IMG/VR virus record: IMGVR_UViG_3300017528_000134
Location: 1-24,470 of that record
Length of the DNA stretch: 24,470 nt
Reading direction: 5' to 3' (one strand)
From: a virus
The notes under the pieces were generated by a model, which made no database searches, was not told where the DNA came from, and saw only the letters and a program-made list of their open reading frames with translations. Position 1 is the stretch's first letter. Every line of letters begins with the position of its first letter. Of the stretch, positions 3,103 through 24,470 are shown in pieces. The translations under genes and the position numbers were made by a program.

Positions 3103-3376
3103 ACGAGTTAGGGGGACGAGCAACCCAAAGCGGTTAGTGACCACATAGGGTCTTTGGGGAACCTTCGGGATTGCCCCGCCCCCTCAAAAATTTCTCTGAT
3201 CGTTGGACCTCAAAGAGCCGCGGACTCTCTCTAACCCGCTAAGTGAAGTGTCCGACCGATCAGGATGTTAGGCCCCGCTACGGCGGGACGCTGTGCGCTA
3301 AACACTCGGCAGACCGAAGCCGTGCGCTACAGGAGCGCGAATCGAAGCGTGCAAGCTCAAAACAGGTACCCAGGCT
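3103..3376 (+). other. Intergenic region before the coat gene
   Basis: These 274 bases hold no convincing ORF. A stem CCCGC/GCGGG with loop TACG lies at 3274-3287. TGATCG (3197-3202) and CGATCA (3256-3261) form a distant inverted repeat. I looked for a tRNA fold, a sigma70 promoter and a U-tailed terminator and found none. As the largest gap in the late block, placed before the most abundant virion protein, it may hold a coat-gene promoter of a phage-specific type or an RNA processing site, but that is inference. Confidence 0.4.
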
Positions 3377-9502: not shown

Positions 9503-12500
9503 ATGAATAACGCGGCCGGCGCTTCTGACATTCCCCTGACGGTCTTCGGCGGGGCTGTGACCGAAATGAAGCCCGAAGACCTTCCCGAGGGCGCGAGTCC
9601 ATTTAATCAGGACATGGACTACACGCCCGGGGCGACGTTCACCAGGGCCGGCCGAAAGAATCAGTACTTTTACGAGAACCTATTTGTTGAAGTGGCCGCG
9701 GGGTTTGCTCAAAGTGTAGGCGACCCCGCTCTCGCCGCTTGGCTCAACCCTTCAAATCTCACGCTGAACACTCCGGGCGTGTACGCCAAAACACGGCTTC
9801 TGAGTACGCCTTTTGGCGGCGGCGGTTTTTGGGATTCATTGGGTTCGGCGGGGATTCTCGGCAATGCAAACCACTTCACCCTTACGTCGACACCCGCAAC
9901 TTCCGGGGAGCTTGCTCTCTTTTTCGTTTCGACGGGTTCGGCGGGCGGAACGACGCAACCCTTTCCCGCGGCGCAAGGTTGGACCGATATCACGGGTTCG
10001 GTTCCAGGCGTCAACGGGAATTATCAGCGCGTCGGGGCGAAGATTCTCGGGGCCGCGCCCGATAGCGCAGTCGTCAATTTCCAGGGCGGAAACGTTGCCT
10101 CTTTTGGCGCGCTCGTCGGCCTCTTCGGGTCGAATGGAAGCTTGCCGACGGTCGTCCAGTCGCACCTCATCAATTCGGGCACGATCTCGGCCGGCGCGCA
10201 CGGGCCTGCAACCTTCGGCGGTCCTGTCACGGCCGGGAACGGCGTATTCATCTTGCTCGGCGCCGCGAGCGGTACGAACGGCCTAACCCTTTGGAGCGGC
10301 GTCACCGCAACCGATAACCAGGGGAATACCTACTACCTCATCGGCAGCCAGGGAAACAACGCAAACGGGACGGCGCAAAGCCTGATTCTCTTTACGCCCT
10401 CGGTTCAAGCGGGCACGCTCAACGTGACGGTCAATATCGGCGCGGGCTCGATCGACGGCGCCAATCTCAGTATGCTCGAGGTTCACGGCCTGCAGGTTCT
10501 TCCGGGGAGCACCGCGACAAAGTCCCAGGAATTGCAGGCGTTCAACTTTCCGCTTAGTATCCCGTCGACCGAGGTCGTCCTCGGGTTCGAATTCGAAATC
10601 AGCGGACACCAATCGACGCTTGACCCGAGTGCGGTTCTGACTCTTTCGCTTCTGAATCCGTCGCCCGCGGGGTCGCCTTCGTTCACGTTCCAGCTTCCCC
10701 TTGTCGATGGGCCCGTGACGATTGCGACGCCGCTCGAGACGTGGGGTTTCCGCCTCACTCCCGATCAACTGAACGACCCGAGTTTCGGCTTCAAGATCGT
10801 CGCAAGCTCGGCGGTTGCCGCGGAATTCGATGCGTATTCGGCGAAGATCAAGGTCTTTCTGACGCCGAACCCGCCGGTTAACTTTAATTGGATTAAGACC
10901 TACCAGCAAAACAACGGGAACATTGACTCGCTGCTCCTCGACGACGCCGGGATTCTGTGGCAAGAGGACGTGATCGCGGCTCCTGGGGTTCTCGATTCGA
11001 TCTTCACGGCAATCGAGCCGCATACCTTCGCAAAGAGCGTGACCTTCGAAGACGTCGAATGGATTGCGTTTTCGAATCTTGTAAACGGTACGGACATGCC
11101 GCGGCAGTGGGACGGGAAAAATCTCGACCGCGTGAGTCAGGTTGGCCCAGGCGCGCCGCCTTCGTTTTCGACGAGTGCCTCGAGCATTGCGATCGTGTCG
11201 ATCACGCAACCTACGCCGAAATCGGACCCTGCTTCACCCGGACACGTCAGTCAAATTCTTTGGTCGGCCGGCCCGGGCAGTACTGGACCCGGAAACATTC
11301 TCACGGTTTATTATGCGATGACGGCGACCCATGAAGGGCACCCCGGGCAACCGGCCGCCGACCCTGACCTCGTCGTCGGCGGGAATGTCGCGCTACAGAA
11401 TTTCGCGACGATCAACGGGCAGACAGTCGACGGCGTTTATGTGATCACTTCGACGGGGCACCAAGTTCCGCCGAACTCGGATAATGACCGTTGGTACTTC
11501 ACCGTTCAGATGCCGACGGCACAATTTTTCCAGAATCACAACGGCGAACCGAGCGCGATCGTTGGGCAATATCAGGTGACGCTCGCGACCCTGACCGCGG
11601 CTTCGCAGGTTCCAAACCTCGAAGTCGGCGATCAGATGACGCTTTCGGGCACGGGCGGGGCTCCAACTGCCGGTTACGATGGAACGTGGACGGTGAGTCA
11701 AACGCCCAACGCTTCGCAACTGCAGATTGTTTCGGTCGCGCGCTCGGGCGGGATTGCGACTTACGGATTCAACCTGATCAATGGGACGCTTCCTGTCATC
11801 GGGCAGCAAGTGACGGTCGTCGGGACGCTTGCGGACAACGGCAGTTTCAACGTTTCGAATGTGGCAATCGCTTCGGTGACGCCAGGGTCCTTTACGCTTG
11901 CACTCCCCGGAAACGACGTTTCGAGCACGGGCGAAAACGGCTCGGGCACGATCTCGGGAACAATCTTCAAGTTTGACCCCGCGATCATTGTCGGAACGAG
12001 GACCGGTGGAACGATCGTCACTTCGGGCGTCATTGGCGCCGGAATTCGCCGCGGCGTCGTGATGTTTCAAACACGCAGCGCGGGAATCACTCAACCTTCG
12101 CCCTACTTCGAGTTCACTGTTACGGGCAGCGTGAGCACGCTCAATGCCTCACAGATTCCGATCGGGCCGCCCGACACAATCCGCCGCATCATTGCCTTCA
12201 CGGGGGCGAACGGCGGGAATTATTTTTACATTGATCAGCCGGTCACGGTGACGAACAACGGGCAGAAGGTGACGTATACCTCGACCGTCATCCCCGACAA
12301 TACGACGACCAGCGCGAATTTTAGTTTCCCCGATGCGGTTCTGCTCGCGGGCATCCCGATCGACGTTCAGGGAAACAATCTCTTCGCGCAGCGCGAACTC
12401 GGCTCCTCGATCGGGTTCCTCAGTTACTCGAGCCGGCTCTTTGCCTGGGGCGAACAGAACAAAGTCCAGAATTTTCTCAATCTTTCGTTTGATGGCGGGT

Positions 12501-14113
12501 ACAATCCGCCGAATCTTTTGCCGCTCGGTTGGACGGTCGACGCGACAAATGGCGACGGCGGAACGCTTACCGTTTCGCCCCAGTTCGGCAATGCGTACCT
12601 GATCAAGAACGCGACCGGCTCCCCGCAAGCTCTCTACGGGATGATCGAGCAAAATGCCTATGCGAATCAGCTAGGCACGCCGATCATTCGGTCGAACACG
12701 CGTTACTCGGTTCGCATCACCGCGCGCTCGCCTTCGCTCACGCCGTCAGGGAACCTTGTTGTCGATCTCTTTAGTCCGCAACTCGCCCAGGTCTTCGGCT
12801 CGTTCAGCATCCCGCTTGCGAGCATGGGTTCGACGATGACGATTTTCACGGGCGAGCTTTTGACCCAGGCGCAAGAGTTCGGGACCGTGCCGAAGGACCT
12901 GCTCTTGCGACTCTACGCTTCGGCGCTGCCCGATGGCGGCGACGTCGAGATCGACAGAACCGAGCCTTTCCCGACCGATGAACCCGTTTTTTCGACGTCC
13001 TTCACCGCTTCTTATGCCGACAATCCGCAAGGGTTTGACGGCGTTACGGGGAACACGGGCCCCAATCAGAATCAGCAGCCGATTCGCGGCGGCGCGACGA
13101 TGTTCGAGCTCCTCTACGCGCTCAAAGAACGTTCGATCTATTCGACTTCGGATAACGGCGTCACCGAGCCCGCCTTCTGGAACTGGCGCGAGGTTTCGCA
13201 GCAAGTCGGCACGATCGGGATTCACTCTTACGATTATGGGGAAGAGTGGCTCGTCACCGCTTGTCGGCCGGGAGTCTACTTTTTTAACGGCGGCGCCCCG
13301 CTCAAGATCTCGCAGGAGTTTCAAACCCTTTGGGACGCGATTGCCTGGAAATATGGATATACGATATGGGTCAGAAACGACGTCATCAACCGGCGGATTC
13401 TCATCGGGATTCCGCTCCCGACGGGCCCGGGGACGAAATCGTTTCCTTACCTGCCCGAGTTTCCGGCGAATTCCGCGCCGACGAGTCCGAATGTCATCCT
13501 GACGATCAACTATCGGGAACTCAATTCGGGCATGGCTGTTGCCGAAACGGGCCCGATCAAGACGGGGTACTCGGGGCGGATTCTTTCGCCTGAACCGGCG
13601 CGCAAAACATCCTTCTGGAACATTCGCTCGCCCTATGCGGACTTTGTCAACCGCGGGAACAACGAAACGCCGCTCTTCCTTTGTACGGGATACGGCGACA
13701 GCAAGGTTTTTGCTCTCGACCCGGACGAACTCGACGACGACGGCCTCGCGATCAATTCGTTTTACCTGACGTATGGGTTCACGAAAGCCGAAATGCAGGA
13801 CGCAAAGGGCCTCGGGCTTCACCGAATGAGCTTGAAGTACCTGACCTCGCTCGCGGTTGGAAGCGGCGATTTGAACATTTGGGTCTATCCCGAGACGCCC
13901 CTCAATCCGTTGCCCGTGCGGCTCGATTCGATTCCGCTTGACCCGTTCACGCTTGGCGACCTCGAGTCGGACGTCGACTACACGGCGAACCGGTTTTTCG
14001 TGCGTTACGGGACAAACAAGGTCGGTTCGCGTTTTGAGCTTTCGAAGATTGTCGCAAGTCTTGCGCCCGACCCGTGGACACCGATCAGGGGGTCAGCAAG
14101 AGGGAGTCCATGA
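9503..14113 (+). CDS. Very large tail nozzle-like protein with inserted beta domains
   Basis: A 1536-residue virion protein. The N-terminal 55 residues (IPLTVFGGAVTEMKPEDLPE, then FTRAGRKNQY) and the C-terminal 380 residues (YGEEWLVTACRPGVYFFNGG, WVRNDVINRRILIGIPLP, LFLCTGYGDSKVFALDPDELDDD) look like one split beta-propeller core, as in nozzle or DNA-stabilisation proteins (P22 gp10-like). Between them sit several extra beta-rich regions: about 75-330, about 333-455 (jelly-roll-like), about 560-840 (Ig-like, GTWTVSQTPNASQLQIVSV) and about 990-1155 (NxRYSVRITARSPS, carbohydrate-binding-like). Known nozzle proteins are usually roughly 450-900 residues, so the inserts are large. They may decorate the tail or bind the host surface. 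The ATG has a weak ribosome binding site four bases after the previous stop, so it is probably coupled. The stop overlaps the next start as ATGA. Confidence 0.6.
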   Translation: MNNAAGASDIPLTVFGGAVTEMKPEDLPEGASPFNQDMDYTPGATFTRAGRKNQYFYENLFVEVAAGFAQSVGDPALAAWLNPSNLTLNTPGVYAKTRLLSTPFGGGGFWDSLGSAGILGNANHFTLTSTPATSGELALFFVSTGSAGGTTQPFPAAQGWTDITGSVPGVNGNYQRVGAKILGAAPDSAVVNFQGGNVASFGALVGLFGSNGSLPTVVQSHLINSGTISAGAHGPATFGGPVTAGNGVFILLGAASGTNGLTLWSGVTATDNQGNTYYLIGSQGNNANGTAQSLILFTPSVQAGTLNVTVNIGAGSIDGANLSMLEVHGLQVLPGSTATKSQELQAFNFPLSIPSTEVVLGFEFEISGHQSTLDPSAVLTLSLLNPSPAGSPSFTFQLPLVDGPVTIATPLETWGFRLTPDQLNDPSFGFKIVASSAVAAEFDAYSAKIKVFLTPNPPVNFNWIKTYQQNNGNIDSLLLDDAGILWQEDVIAAPGVLDSIFTAIEPHTFAKSVTFEDVEWIAFSNLVNGTDMPRQWDGKNLDRVSQVGPGAPPSFSTSASSIAIVSITQPTPKSDPASPGHVSQILWSAGPGSTGPGNILTVYYAMTATHEGHPGQPAADPDLVVGGNVALQNFATINGQTVDGVYVITSTGHQVPPNSDNDRWYFTVQMPTAQFFQNHNGEPSAIVGQYQVTLATLTAASQVPNLEVGDQMTLSGTGGAPTAGYDGTWTVSQTPNASQLQIVSVARSGGIATYGFNLINGTLPVIGQQVTVVGTLADNGSFNVSNVAIASVTPGSFTLALPGNDVSSTGENGSGTISGTIFKFDPAIIVGTRTGGTIVTSGVIGAGIRRGVVMFQTRSAGITQPSPYFEFTVTGSVSTLNASQIPIGPPDTIRRIIAFTGANGGNYFYIDQPVTVTNNGQKVTYTSTVIPDNTTTSANFSFPDAVLLAGIPIDVQGNNLFAQRELGSSIGFLSYSSRLFAWGEQNKVQNFLNLSFDGGYNPPNLLPLGWTVDATNGDGGTLTVSPQFGNAYLIKNATGSPQALYGMIEQNAYANQLGTPIIRSNTRYSVRITARSPSLTPSGNLVVDLFSPQLAQVFGSFSIPLASMGSTMTIFTGELLTQAQEFGTVPKDLLLRLYASALPDGGDVEIDRTEPFPTDEPVFSTSFTASYADNPQGFDGVTGNTGPNQNQQPIRGGATMFELLYALKERSIYSTSDNGVTEPAFWNWREVSQQVGTIGIHSYDYGEEWLVTACRPGVYFFNGGAPLKISQEFQTLWDAIAWKYGYTIWVRNDVINRRILIGIPLPTGPGTKSFPYLPEFPANSAPTSPNVILTINYRELNSGMAVAETGPIKTGYSGRILSPEPARKTSFWNIRSPYADFVNRGNNETPLFLCTGYGDSKVFALDPDELDDDGLAINSFYLTYGFTKAEMQDAKGLGLHRMSLKYLTSLAVGSGDLNIWVYPETPLNPLPVRLDSIPLDPFTLGDLESDVDYTANRFFVRYGTNKVGSRFELSKIVASLAPDPWTPIRGSARGSP

Positions 14114-20447: not shown

Positions 20448-20697
20448 TCGGAAGATCATCGTCGTGCGGAACTGGCAACTCTTCATCGGGATAGTCGTTC
20501 TCGTCATACAGATCACGTTCGGCGTCGGGATGCGCGCGGCCGAAAACGACGATAATACCCGGGAAATTCAGCAATTGAAGCAGCGGCGCGTCCTCGATAT
20601 CGACGTCTACGAAAACGAGCAGCGCGCGCTACAGGAACAACTCAATCGCGTTGAAGAAAAGCTCGACAAGCTTCTAGAACAGAAGGGCACGAAATGA
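20434..20697 (+). CDS. Membrane-anchored coiled-coil protein (possible inner-membrane spanin)
   Basis: I chose ATG 20434, which follows AAGGA (20422-20426) by seven bases; ATGs further upstream lack such a site. The 87-residue product has a basic N-terminus, one membrane span at about residues 13-33 (NWQLFIGIVVLVIQITFGVG), and then a long charged coiled coil (about 45-85, with LKQRR, EQRALQEQLNRVEEKLDKLL). That N-in, coil-out layout matches inner-membrane spanin subunits, which fuse inner and outer membranes at the end of lysis, but an anti-holin is also possible. The stop overlaps the endopeptidase start as ATGA. Confidence 0.5.
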   Translation: MHKHDRKIIVVRNWQLFIGIVVLVIQITFGVGMRAAENDDNTREIQQLKQRRVLDIDVYENEQRALQEQLNRVEEKLDKLLEQKGTK

Positions 20698-21206
20698 ACG
20701 GACACTCGGAAGCGAAACTCGGCGCAATCTACCCGGAACTCGCGCGGCGAATCCGGTCTGCCGACGGGATGATGACGAGCCTCGGCTTCCGGCTCGAGAT
20801 CTCCCAGGGCCTTCGCACCTTTGCCGAACAGCGCGCGCTCTACTTGAAGGGTCGCGACCTTGCCGGGAACATCATCGACCCGACGAAGATCGTGACACAC
20901 GCAAAGGCCGGCGAGAGTTACCACAATTACGGCCTTGCGGTCGACTTTTTCTTTGAGAACCTCGAAGGCGCCGCCATTTGGGCGCCCGACTTCCCGGGTT
21001 ACGCGAAAATGGTTGAAATCGCGGAAAGCCTGGGTTTAGTATGCGGCGTCAGATGGCCCGAACCCAAAACGGACCCCGATCACATCCAACTGACGGGCGA
21101 ATTTCCAATGAACGAACCCGATGCGAACCTCAAGTACATTCTGAAAGAAGGCGGCCTTCTCGCCGTCTACGCGGAGATGAACAAGGCGCTCGGGATTGAG
21201 GGATAG
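20694..21206 (+). CDS. Endolysin: M15-family peptidoglycan endopeptidase
   Basis: The 170-residue enzyme should cut peptide stems of peptidoglycan (L-Ala-D-Glu endopeptidase or D,D-carboxypeptidase type, as in T5 lysin). The M15 zinc motifs are clear: S75-Y-H77-N-Y-G-L-A-V-D84 (first His and the Asp), and D-P-D-H130-I-Q-L (last His). GLRTFAEQ at residues 40-46 holds the conserved Arg and Glu/Gln of the substrate side. There is no signal peptide, so it relies on a holin. No separate cell-wall binding domain exists, normal for phages of Gram-negative hosts. It overlaps the upstream coiled-coil gene as ATGA. Confidence 0.92.
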
Positions 21207-23066: not shown

Positions 23067-23217
23067 TAGCGGACGCTCAAAAGCGTTTTTGCAAGCATGG
23101 CAGATCATAACAAAGACTTTTCGCGACCCGAAACTTGGATGCGGCGTAGGCTCTTATAAAACATGGGGTTACGTTAACATTGGGCGTTTGTGGCGCAGCG
23201 GAATGGGGCCGTGTTAA
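23023..23217 (+). CDS. Small basic ORF, doubtful
   Basis: A 64-residue ORF starting inside the RHH gene (ATG 23023, AGGTG upstream) and ending in the GTGTTAA that also holds the methyltransferase start. It is basic (MKLKPPFRIQVFRYSSGRSK; then KTFRDPKL) and has no recognisable domain. The intrinsic terminator at 23073-23090 lies inside it, which argues against a normal gene. The stop/start overlap with the methyltransferase argues for coupling. I keep it at low confidence. Confidence 0.25.
   Translation: MKLKPPFRIQVFRYSSGRSKAFLQAWQIITKTFRDPKLGCGVGSYKTWGYVNIGRLWRSGMGPC
23058..23090 (+). terminator. Twin hairpin terminator after the RHH gene
   Basis: CCGCT-ATAGT-AGCGG (23058-23072) is followed at once by ACGCT-CAAA-AGCGT (23073-23086) and then TTTT (23087-23090). 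The first hairpin contains the RHH stop codon. Confidence 0.65.
23155..23160 (+). promoter_or_regulatory. Possible -10 box for the methyltransferase gene
   Basis: TATAAA lies 51 bases before the GTG at 23211. The best -35 candidates (TTGGAT at 23135, ACTTGG at 23133) are poor in spacing or match. Since a terminator lies between this gene and the RHH gene, some promoter is needed here. Confidence 0.25.
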
Positions 23218-24038
23218 CGCACGGTAGCCTTTTTTCGGGGATTGGCGGCTTCGATCTCGGTTTCGAGCGCGCGGAAATCCGCACAGTTTGGCAGGTCGAG
23301 ATTGATGATTTTTGCCGTCGTGTCCTCGCCCGCCACTTTCCAAACGCCAAACGCTATGAAGACATTCGAACAGTCGGAGCCCGAACCCTTGAACGAGTCG
23401 ACATTCTCAGCGGCGGATTCCCCTGCCAAGATATCAGCACCGCCGGAAAACGTGCCGGAATCGAAGGCGACCGAAGCGGCCTTTGGGGAGAGTATAAAAG
23501 GCTCATTTGCGAACTACGACCCCGCGTCGCGGTCGTGGAAAACGTCGCAGCTTTGCTTAACAGGGGAATTGAGCGGGTTCTCGGAGACTTGGCCGAGATC
23601 GGGTATGATGCGGAATGGCAGTGCATTCGAGCGTCAGACATTGGTGCCCCTCATCGACGAGACAGAGTTTGGATTGTGGCCTACCCCGGCCGGTTTCGGG
23701 ACGGATGGGCACGGAAGCGAGCTTTCACAGGCGACGAAGTATCGGGAGAATCCCGGCGGCCCGATTCGGGTGAAGTGGCCGACGCCGAAGGCGGGTCGTC
23801 CCGATCAAGCGAATACATTCGCGCGAGGCAATCCGAACCTAGCGAAAGCAGTAACGATGTGGCCGACGCCGACCGTACAGGATGCGGAGAACGACGGGGG
23901 CCCGTCGCAATTCAACCGGAACAGCCTGCCGTTGAATTCAATCGTCAAGCTATTCGCGACACCTCAAGCGAACGATCACTGGAGCCCTTGCAATTCTGGC
24001 AGCGAGCGAGCCTCGGGGATGTTGCCGACTCAAATTAA
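23211..24038 (+). CDS. C5 cytosine DNA methyltransferase, cut short before motif X
   Basis: The enzyme methylates carbon 5 of cytosine in a specific DNA site, often protecting phage DNA. From GTG 23211 the motifs run in order: I (LFSGIGGFDLGFE, 7-19), IV with the catalytic Cys (GGFPCQD, C72), VI (VENV, 109-112) and VIII (APHRRDRVWIVA, 146-157). GTG 23190 is an alternative start. Next comes a variable target-recognition part with VADAE and VADAD repeats. A TAA at 24036-24038 ends the frame at 275 residues, before motifs IX-X. In the same frame after the stop the usual end follows (24039-24206), so this is a nonsense-interrupted gene and probably inactive. The +1 frame is also open over most of its length. 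Confidence 0.85.
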   Translation: MLTHGSLFSGIGGFDLGFERAEIRTVWQVEIDDFCRRVLARHFPNAKRYEDIRTVGARTLERVDILSGGFPCQDISTAGKRAGIEGDRSGLWGEYKRLICELRPRVAVVENVAALLNRGIERVLGDLAEIGYDAEWQCIRASDIGAPHRRDRVWIVAYPGRFRDGWARKRAFTGDEVSGESRRPDSGEVADAEGGSSRSSEYIRARQSEPSESSNDVADADRTGCGERRGPVAIQPEQPAVEFNRQAIRDTSSERSLEPLQFWQRASLGDVADSN

Positions 24039-24060
24039 TGGACAACTGAACCCAACATAA
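23356..24060 (+). CDS. Overprinted +1-frame protein inside the methyltransferase gene
   Basis: The +1 frame of the methyltransferase gene is open from 23242 to a TAA at 24058-24060. From ATG 23356 it gives 234 residues. It contains TFSAADSPAKISA (over the catalytic-Cys motif of the other frame), SFANYDPASRSWKTSQ, FSETWPRSGMMRNGSAFE, three WPTP motifs (LWPTPAG, KWPTPKA, MWPTPTVQDAEND) and QLNPT at the end. I recognise this as a family of phage proteins often found annotated alone as hypothetical or as 'methyltransferase'; its usual end continues past LNPT as W-V-E-W-L-M-G-x-P. No good ribosome binding site precedes 23356, and TTG 23242 or frameshifting are alternatives. Whether it is translated cannot be told here. 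Confidence 0.5.
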   Translation: MKTFEQSEPEPLNESTFSAADSPAKISAPPENVPESKATEAAFGESIKGSFANYDPASRSWKTSQLCLTGELSGFSETWPRSGMMRNGSAFERQTLVPLIDETEFGLWPTPAGFGTDGHGSELSQATKYRENPGGPIRVKWPTPKAGRPDQANTFARGNPNLAKAVTMWPTPTVQDAENDGGPSQFNRNSLPLNSIVKLFATPQANDHWSPCNSGSERASGMLPTQINGQLNPT

Positions 24061-24206
24061 GTCGAGTGGCTCATGAAATACCCTCTCGAGTGGACCGTCT
24101 TACCGGACTCGGGAACGCGATCATCCCGCAAATCGCGGAAATCATCGGAAGGGGGCTCGTCAGATGGCTAGAACCGAACACGACGCGGCAACCCTCTACC
24201 TCTTGA
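24039..24206 (+). pseudogene. Detached C-terminus of the methyltransferase (motifs IX-X)
   Basis: Directly after the TAA at 24036, in the same frame, the sequence reads WTTEPNISRVAHEIPSRVDR and then LTGLGNAIIPQIAEIIGRGL, the conserved end of phage C5 methyltransferases (R-V-A-H-G-x-P-x-R-V-D-R-L, then motif X G-N-A-x-x-P-Q). It runs to TGA 24204-24206. No start codon with a ribosome binding site precedes it, so it is likely not made as a separate piece. In the +1 frame, bases 24061-24171 likewise carry the detached end of the overprinted family (VEWLMKYPLEWT). Confidence 0.75.
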
Positions 24207-24291: not shown

Positions 24292-24470
24292 ATGAAATTC
24301 GAAATAAAAAATCGGTGGGACGGTTCGTTAATTTTCAGCATAGAAGCCGAAAATTGGCGCGTTGCAGTTGAAGCCGCTATTGGTGCAAAGGCGAACCTCC
24401 GCTTGGCGAACCTCAGCTCGGCGGACCTCAGCTCGGCGGACCTCAGCTCGGCGAACCTCAGCTTGGCGAA
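24292..24470 (+). CDS. Pentapeptide-repeat protein (3' end outside window)
   Basis: ATG 24292 follows AGGAG (24278-24282) by nine bases. Fifty-nine codons are visible. Residues 1-33 (MKFEIKNRWDGSLIFSIEAE...) match the N-terminal leader I know from phage pentapeptide-repeat proteins. From residue 34 the A(D/N)LxX repeat begins: ANLRL, ANLSS, ADLSS, ADLSS, ANLSL. Such repeats build a right-handed quadrilateral beta helix. Some members mimic DNA and inhibit gyrase; for most phage members the role is unknown. The window ends inside the repeat. Confidence 0.88.
   Translation, partial: MKFEIKNRWDGSLIFSIEAENWRVAVEAAIGAKANLRLANLSSADLSSADLSSANLSLA
24391..24470 (+). repeat. 15-base tandem repeats coding pentapeptides
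   Basis: Five near-identical 15-base units (type GCGAACCTCAGCTCG) run from 24391 to 24465 and a sixth begins at 24466. The third and fourth units are identical. The DNA-level identity exceeds what the protein repeat requires and suggests recent expansion. Confidence 0.85.

Follow-up and report, generated by a model that had tools for sequence, protein, structure and literature searches.

The window analysed here is an IMG/VR virus record of 24,470 bases, with a methyltransferase locus near its 3' end in which two overlapping open reading frames (ORFs) lie on the plus strand. The first of them, alpha (frame 0, 23190..24035), is the catalytic domain of a C5-cytosine methyltransferase: its translation comprises motifs I to VIII and a variable linker, and it matches PF00145 (4.3e-44), TIGR00675 dcm (5e-39, exceeding the curated cut-off) and phrog_363 (1.6e-70). 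Motifs I, IV (PCQ), VI (ENV) and VIII occur in the order expected of PF00145. Motif I is found at 23223-23252, so that alpha starts 5' of position 23242, from which an initial annotation had let a continuous two-frame locus run to 24171. Motif IV, GGFPCQDIS, which includes the catalytic Cys, is located at 23412..23438 (PCQ is invariant among relatives) and motif VIII, GAPHRRDRV, at 23643..23669, in columns that are invariant in an alignment of relatives (A2).

The second ORF, beta, is an open stretch in the +1 frame (23242..24057) that matches phrog_1008, labelled 'DNA methyltransferase' (2.5e-24), and scores 161 bits against a beta HMM. The matches of the two frames to PF00145 and phrog_1008 support the initial annotation in its view that two recognisable proteins are encoded in overlapping frames. 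Beta carries a WPRSGMMRNG motif (23590..23619) and WPTP-type units starting at 23677, 23776, 23860, and 23953 (the last one FATP); these units (23677..23964), which we propose as a recognition region, overlap the unconserved linker of alpha. Translation also confirms that four pairs of alpha and beta motifs are encoded by the same DNA: GGFPCQDIS and FSAADSPAKIS (around 23412-23438), LAEIGYDAEW and WPRSGMMRNG (23589-23619), VADAD and WPTPT (around 23858-23875), and RVAHEIPSRVDR and EWLMKYPLEWT (around 24061-24098).

Elsewhere in the window, an endolysin is encoded at 20694-21203 (phrog_2649, 7e-18), and positions 24292-24468 hold the start of a pentapeptide-repeat protein cut by the contig end (phrog_31265). 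A 1536-aa ORF at 9503-14113 belongs to no PHROG family and has no match among 50,697 phage records, and most other large ORFs of the window likewise lack PHROG matches. In the scanned part of the window, we recognised no restriction enzyme.

Contrary to the continuous locus initially described, neither frame is open across 23242-24171. The alpha frame is closed by a TAA (24036..24038) directly 5' of a conserved W..EP segment, where relatives have no stop, and the beta frame by a TAA (24058..24060) that interrupts LNPT*VEWLM at the codon of a Trp invariant in an alignment of relatives (LNPxWVEWLMG, A1). Past the first stop, the alpha frame continues as a C-terminal segment (24039..24206; phrog_363, 7e-5 for 24066-24203) with RVDRLTGLGNAIIPQ (24087-24131) aligned with motif X of relatives. 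Similarly, a remnant of motif IX, VEWLMKYPLEWT (24061..24096), follows the beta stop and aligns with motif IX of intact relatives. Thus, the earlier reading of frame 0 as motifs I to VIII and X is correct as to the motifs present, but motif X comes only after the stop. As motifs IX and X both lie past in-frame stops, whereas they are translatable in intact relatives, the window copy is a degraded relative of C5-cytosine methyltransferases rather than a working member. It is probably inactive, and most likely decayed, unless it contains sequence errors.

It is possible, if somewhat doubtful, that both stops are sequencing or assembly errors in an intact copy, or that the fragments complement one another. 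Conserved sequence does run on past both stops in both frames, and split C5 methyltransferases can function from fragments (PMC3404938). On the other hand, each stop replaces a codon that is read through in relatives, the two stops are only 22 bases apart, and we found no second copy of the same virus against which they could be checked. This alternative bears only on the condition of the window copy; what kind of family it belongs to is unaffected. Recoding of the stops was rejected, as TAA ends 10 of the 20 ORFs of the window and is their commonest terminator. Compared by eye with the consensus of relatives, positions 24039-24131 show an apparent excess of G-to-A differences near both stops (GRVAHGVP to SRVAHEIP, V to I, TGG to TAA).

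Overlapping motifs could also arise as side effects of residue conservation in the methyltransferase and of codon bias, in which case the +1 frame would be a mere shadow of alpha. Viral contigs, bacterial genomes and phage records together yielded about 270 two-frame loci. Beta overlaps alpha in the +1 frame in all 192 loci of a first set, which was fetched mostly through beta. Because of this bias, a second set was fetched through alpha alone, and beta is at +1 in 81 of its 82 loci; the sole exception (L271) has a +1 pair too, with another alpha-like ORF. We then shuffled synonymous codons in such a way that neither the alpha protein nor its codon usage changed, and scored the resulting +1 frames against the beta profile. 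The window scores 161.4 bits, versus a mean of 47 and a maximum of 90 in 2000 shuffles. For 160 loci outside the profile-building set, the mean is 192 bits observed versus 43 shuffled, and in each locus the observed score exceeds the best of 100 shuffles. This test measures resemblance to a profile and the 160 loci were fetched partly through beta patterns, a bias that does not affect the window or the alpha-fetched loci.

Shuffled sequences that preserve only alpha still average 43-47 bits, so that part of the resemblance is indeed a shadow. The openness of the +1 frame in the window is weak evidence, as 38 of 2000 shuffles are equally open; in the 160 loci, the lack of stops in the overlap follows from construction and was not taken as evidence. 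Three alpha-like ORFs without conserved +1 signal (L333, L163 and the second ORF of L152) provide outgroup controls, albeit weak ones. The +1 frame of L333, a more distant methyltransferase, yields 15 bits with 11 stops (5 of 300 shuffles equal it), and that of the second ORF of L152 yields -0.3 bits (equalled by 77 of 300). More distant methyltransferases thus give little beta signal.

Further evidence against a shadow comes from individual columns and from synonymous rates. Across 211 loci, we compared the observed frequencies of beta residues with those expected from alpha. The W and P of WPxxG reach 0.82 (0.29 expected), the P of TP units 0.95 (0.32 expected), TP residues overall 0.91-0.98 (0.3-0.6 expected), and the V, E, L and G of VEWLMG 0.89-0.97 (0.16-0.44 expected). 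In the reverse test, with beta fixed, alpha is constrained at motifs I-VIII and at W..EP..GRVA..R, 5' of motif X, and its linker hardly at all. In 60 related pairs, alpha pS is 0.60 upstream and 0.59 downstream of beta, 0.55 in the linker and 0.44 across motifs IV-VIII, and falls to 0.22 where beta encodes motif IX, LNPxWVEWLMGFPxGWT; pN/pS of the alpha linker is 0.82. This pattern indicates that the constrained product is beta in the linker, mainly alpha at motifs IV-VIII, and both at the 3' end. A strict motif IX pattern leaves 57 of 80 loci doubly intact, and the other 23 mostly carry variant spellings of motif IX (EKLMGF, EQVMGF). Both frames are under constraint.

Shuffle, per-column and synonymous-rate tests therefore lead us to reject the shadow-frame reading, which we regard as extremely improbable: no shuffle equals the observed scores in the window or the 160 loci, alpha synonymous change drops where beta is conserved, and, as described below, the WPTP and motif IX parts of beta are retained outside the overlap. 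The same results contradict the suggestion that a long-lived spurious frame had been annotated many times. Residues of the +1 frame do not vary freely, +1 ORFs are not randomly broken in relatives, and the proposal that a nested gene is conserved here and has a link to DNA modification is supported.

What beta contributes can be read from loci in which the two frames are arranged differently. In the phages Ovechkin, Andrew and Samy, and in loci L178 and L182, alpha ends after motif VIII and beta continues alone, in a single frame that holds WPTP units, a (V/A/P)EW(L/M)MG segment and motif X, so that WPTP units and motif IX are kept in non-overlapping DNA. Alpha and beta parts are found on one chain in actinobacteriophages, and in many mycobacteriophages motifs I-VIII, WPTP units, IX and X form a single chain. 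A IX-X profile built from joined forms matches the plant DRM methyltransferase 4onj over LEPDEVEMLLGFPKNHTRG-GGISRTDRYKSLGNS (E 0.002), a match that identifies the LNPxWVEWLMGFPxGWT stretch as motif IX. Judged from its sequence, then, beta carries motif IX. Modelled with AlphaFold, a single-chain form (pLDDT 74, pTM 0.72) matches M.HhaI with a Z of 24.0 (rmsd 3.9, 247 aligned); its ends are confident and its WPTP region (around residues 161-278) is of low confidence, as it is in the model of beta alone (pLDDT 62, pTM 0.33), which was left out of the fold search.

Beta could be a real nested gene for an independent protein, such as a regulatory protein or one that counteracts host restriction. 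An early beta alignment found no solved relative among PDB sequences at E<=1, beta modelled alone is poor, and its assignment to the methyltransferase depends on the presence of motif IX and on the joined genes. Yet motif IX is precisely what alpha lacks, and in split and single-chain relatives beta is fused in frame with motif X and with motifs I-VIII, which makes an independent function very unlikely. An unrelated overprinted or counter-restriction protein, as initially envisaged, is thus at odds with a +1 product that seems to complete the enzyme encoded by alpha. The variable region of beta is probably the target recognition region, given its position and variability: betas carry 0-7 TP units (most commonly 2-4), and some loci have other sequence in their place, as expected of a recognition region.

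Two further observations concern joined forms. VEWLMG (motif IX) is fused straight to motif X in one frame in L192 (3139-3321) and L226 (3350-3541), an apparently separate, second in-frame joining outside mycobacteriophages. In mycobacteriophage loci L286, L287, L288 and L306 (around 3230-3260), single-chain forms retain an open +1 piece that comprises the N-terminal part of beta and two TP units, outscores all or nearly all alpha-preserving shuffles, and ends at a common TAG where TP units resume in the alpha frame. This junction possibly reflects recombination between frames or a further small product.

The locus thus very probably encodes, on sequence grounds, a phage-borne two-polypeptide C5-cytosine DNA methyltransferase with the layout of M.EcoHK31I, in which alpha is catalytic and beta supplies motif IX. 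Alpha would provide the large catalytic domain, its linker standing where a monomeric enzyme has the small domain, and the nested beta would supply motif IX together with the variable, often WPTP-type, region that probably recognises the target. Translation of beta would start internally on the alpha mRNA: 72% of loci have a start codon with a Shine-Dalgarno-like motif ahead of the conserved core of beta, compared with 46% in shuffles, an excess that favours this mechanism. In the window, the start is likely ATG 23356 or 23305. Alternatively, beta may be produced by frameshifting from alpha. The two products are expected to pair as one enzyme, which the phage would use to shield its own DNA from host restriction.

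The beta of M.EcoHK31I (YGGCCR) is reportedly translated from an alternative frame within the alpha gene, according to a 1995 NAR paper. In that two-polypeptide enzyme, alpha contains motifs I-VIII and X and beta only motif IX, and the predicted recognition domain is assigned to alpha (PMC3404938). Compared by layout, intact relatives of the window locus fit this type of split: alpha has motifs I-VIII and X without IX, beta has IX, and beta lies in another frame inside the alpha gene (in 192 of 192 and 81 of 82 loci). As the layout is the same, this kind of enzyme is already known. Two differences are that our alpha linker is unconserved and the variable WPTP units are in beta, whereas recognition is predicted to lie in alpha in M.EcoHK31I, and that the window copy is interrupted. 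M.AquI (CYCGRG) has a second polypeptide with motifs IX and X, as do Ovechkin, Andrew, Samy, L178 and L182; in contrast, motif X stays with alpha in the window and in most loci, where beta is fully or nearly nested at +1. PHROG_1008 is the same family as the +1 product of the window, but the entry gives no frame relation, partner or mechanism. A literature search for nested phage methyltransferases found no paper with the terms tried. New here are the breadth of the family, the evidence for dual constraint, the absence of beta from Pfam and NCBIfam, and the occurrence of nested, split and single-chain forms.

Beta relatives are encoded in at least 551 viral stretches and at least 352 genome stretches. 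The beta of one locus (L001) is matched by 423 phage records, and 11 of 274 gammaproteobacterial genomes have a match (one of the 11 being the genome on which the search was centred). PHROG_1008 is matched by the window beta and by 90 of 90 relatives, and the betas tested have no match in Pfam or NCBIfam. Annotation is inconsistent. Among the records examined, the view that the +1 protein is deposited without its partner holds for ReT1v-2 and Mwe-JY08, which annotate beta without full alpha, but not for Bloom, ArV1, Andrew, Samy and Ovechkin, which annotate both, nor for the Leptospira plasmid p2, E. coli PT62, phiGT1, BF1-TP2 and MW202733, which annotate alpha only. The two RefSeq bacterial records examined lack an annotation for this probably necessary methyltransferase subunit, and neither Pfam nor NCBIfam models it, so that the annotation of many 'orphan' methyltransferases may miss their motif IX part.

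In bacteria, cases in which two functional genes overlap on the same strand over a long, deeply conserved stretch are rare and difficult to establish. Hundreds of loci of this family, among them some from cultured phages and from E. coli prophages, show strong dual constraint, and because one enzyme occurs in split, nested and single-chain form, it becomes possible to test how an overlapping gene arose. We tentatively suggest that the use of two frames of the same DNA for the catalytic and the DNA-recognising part of one methyltransferase may be a widespread and long-lived strategy, with a modular WPTP recognition region that shifts between frames. If so, WPTP units would vary in number and have moved between frames more than once, and specificity could change even as the catalytic frame exerts a continuous constraint.
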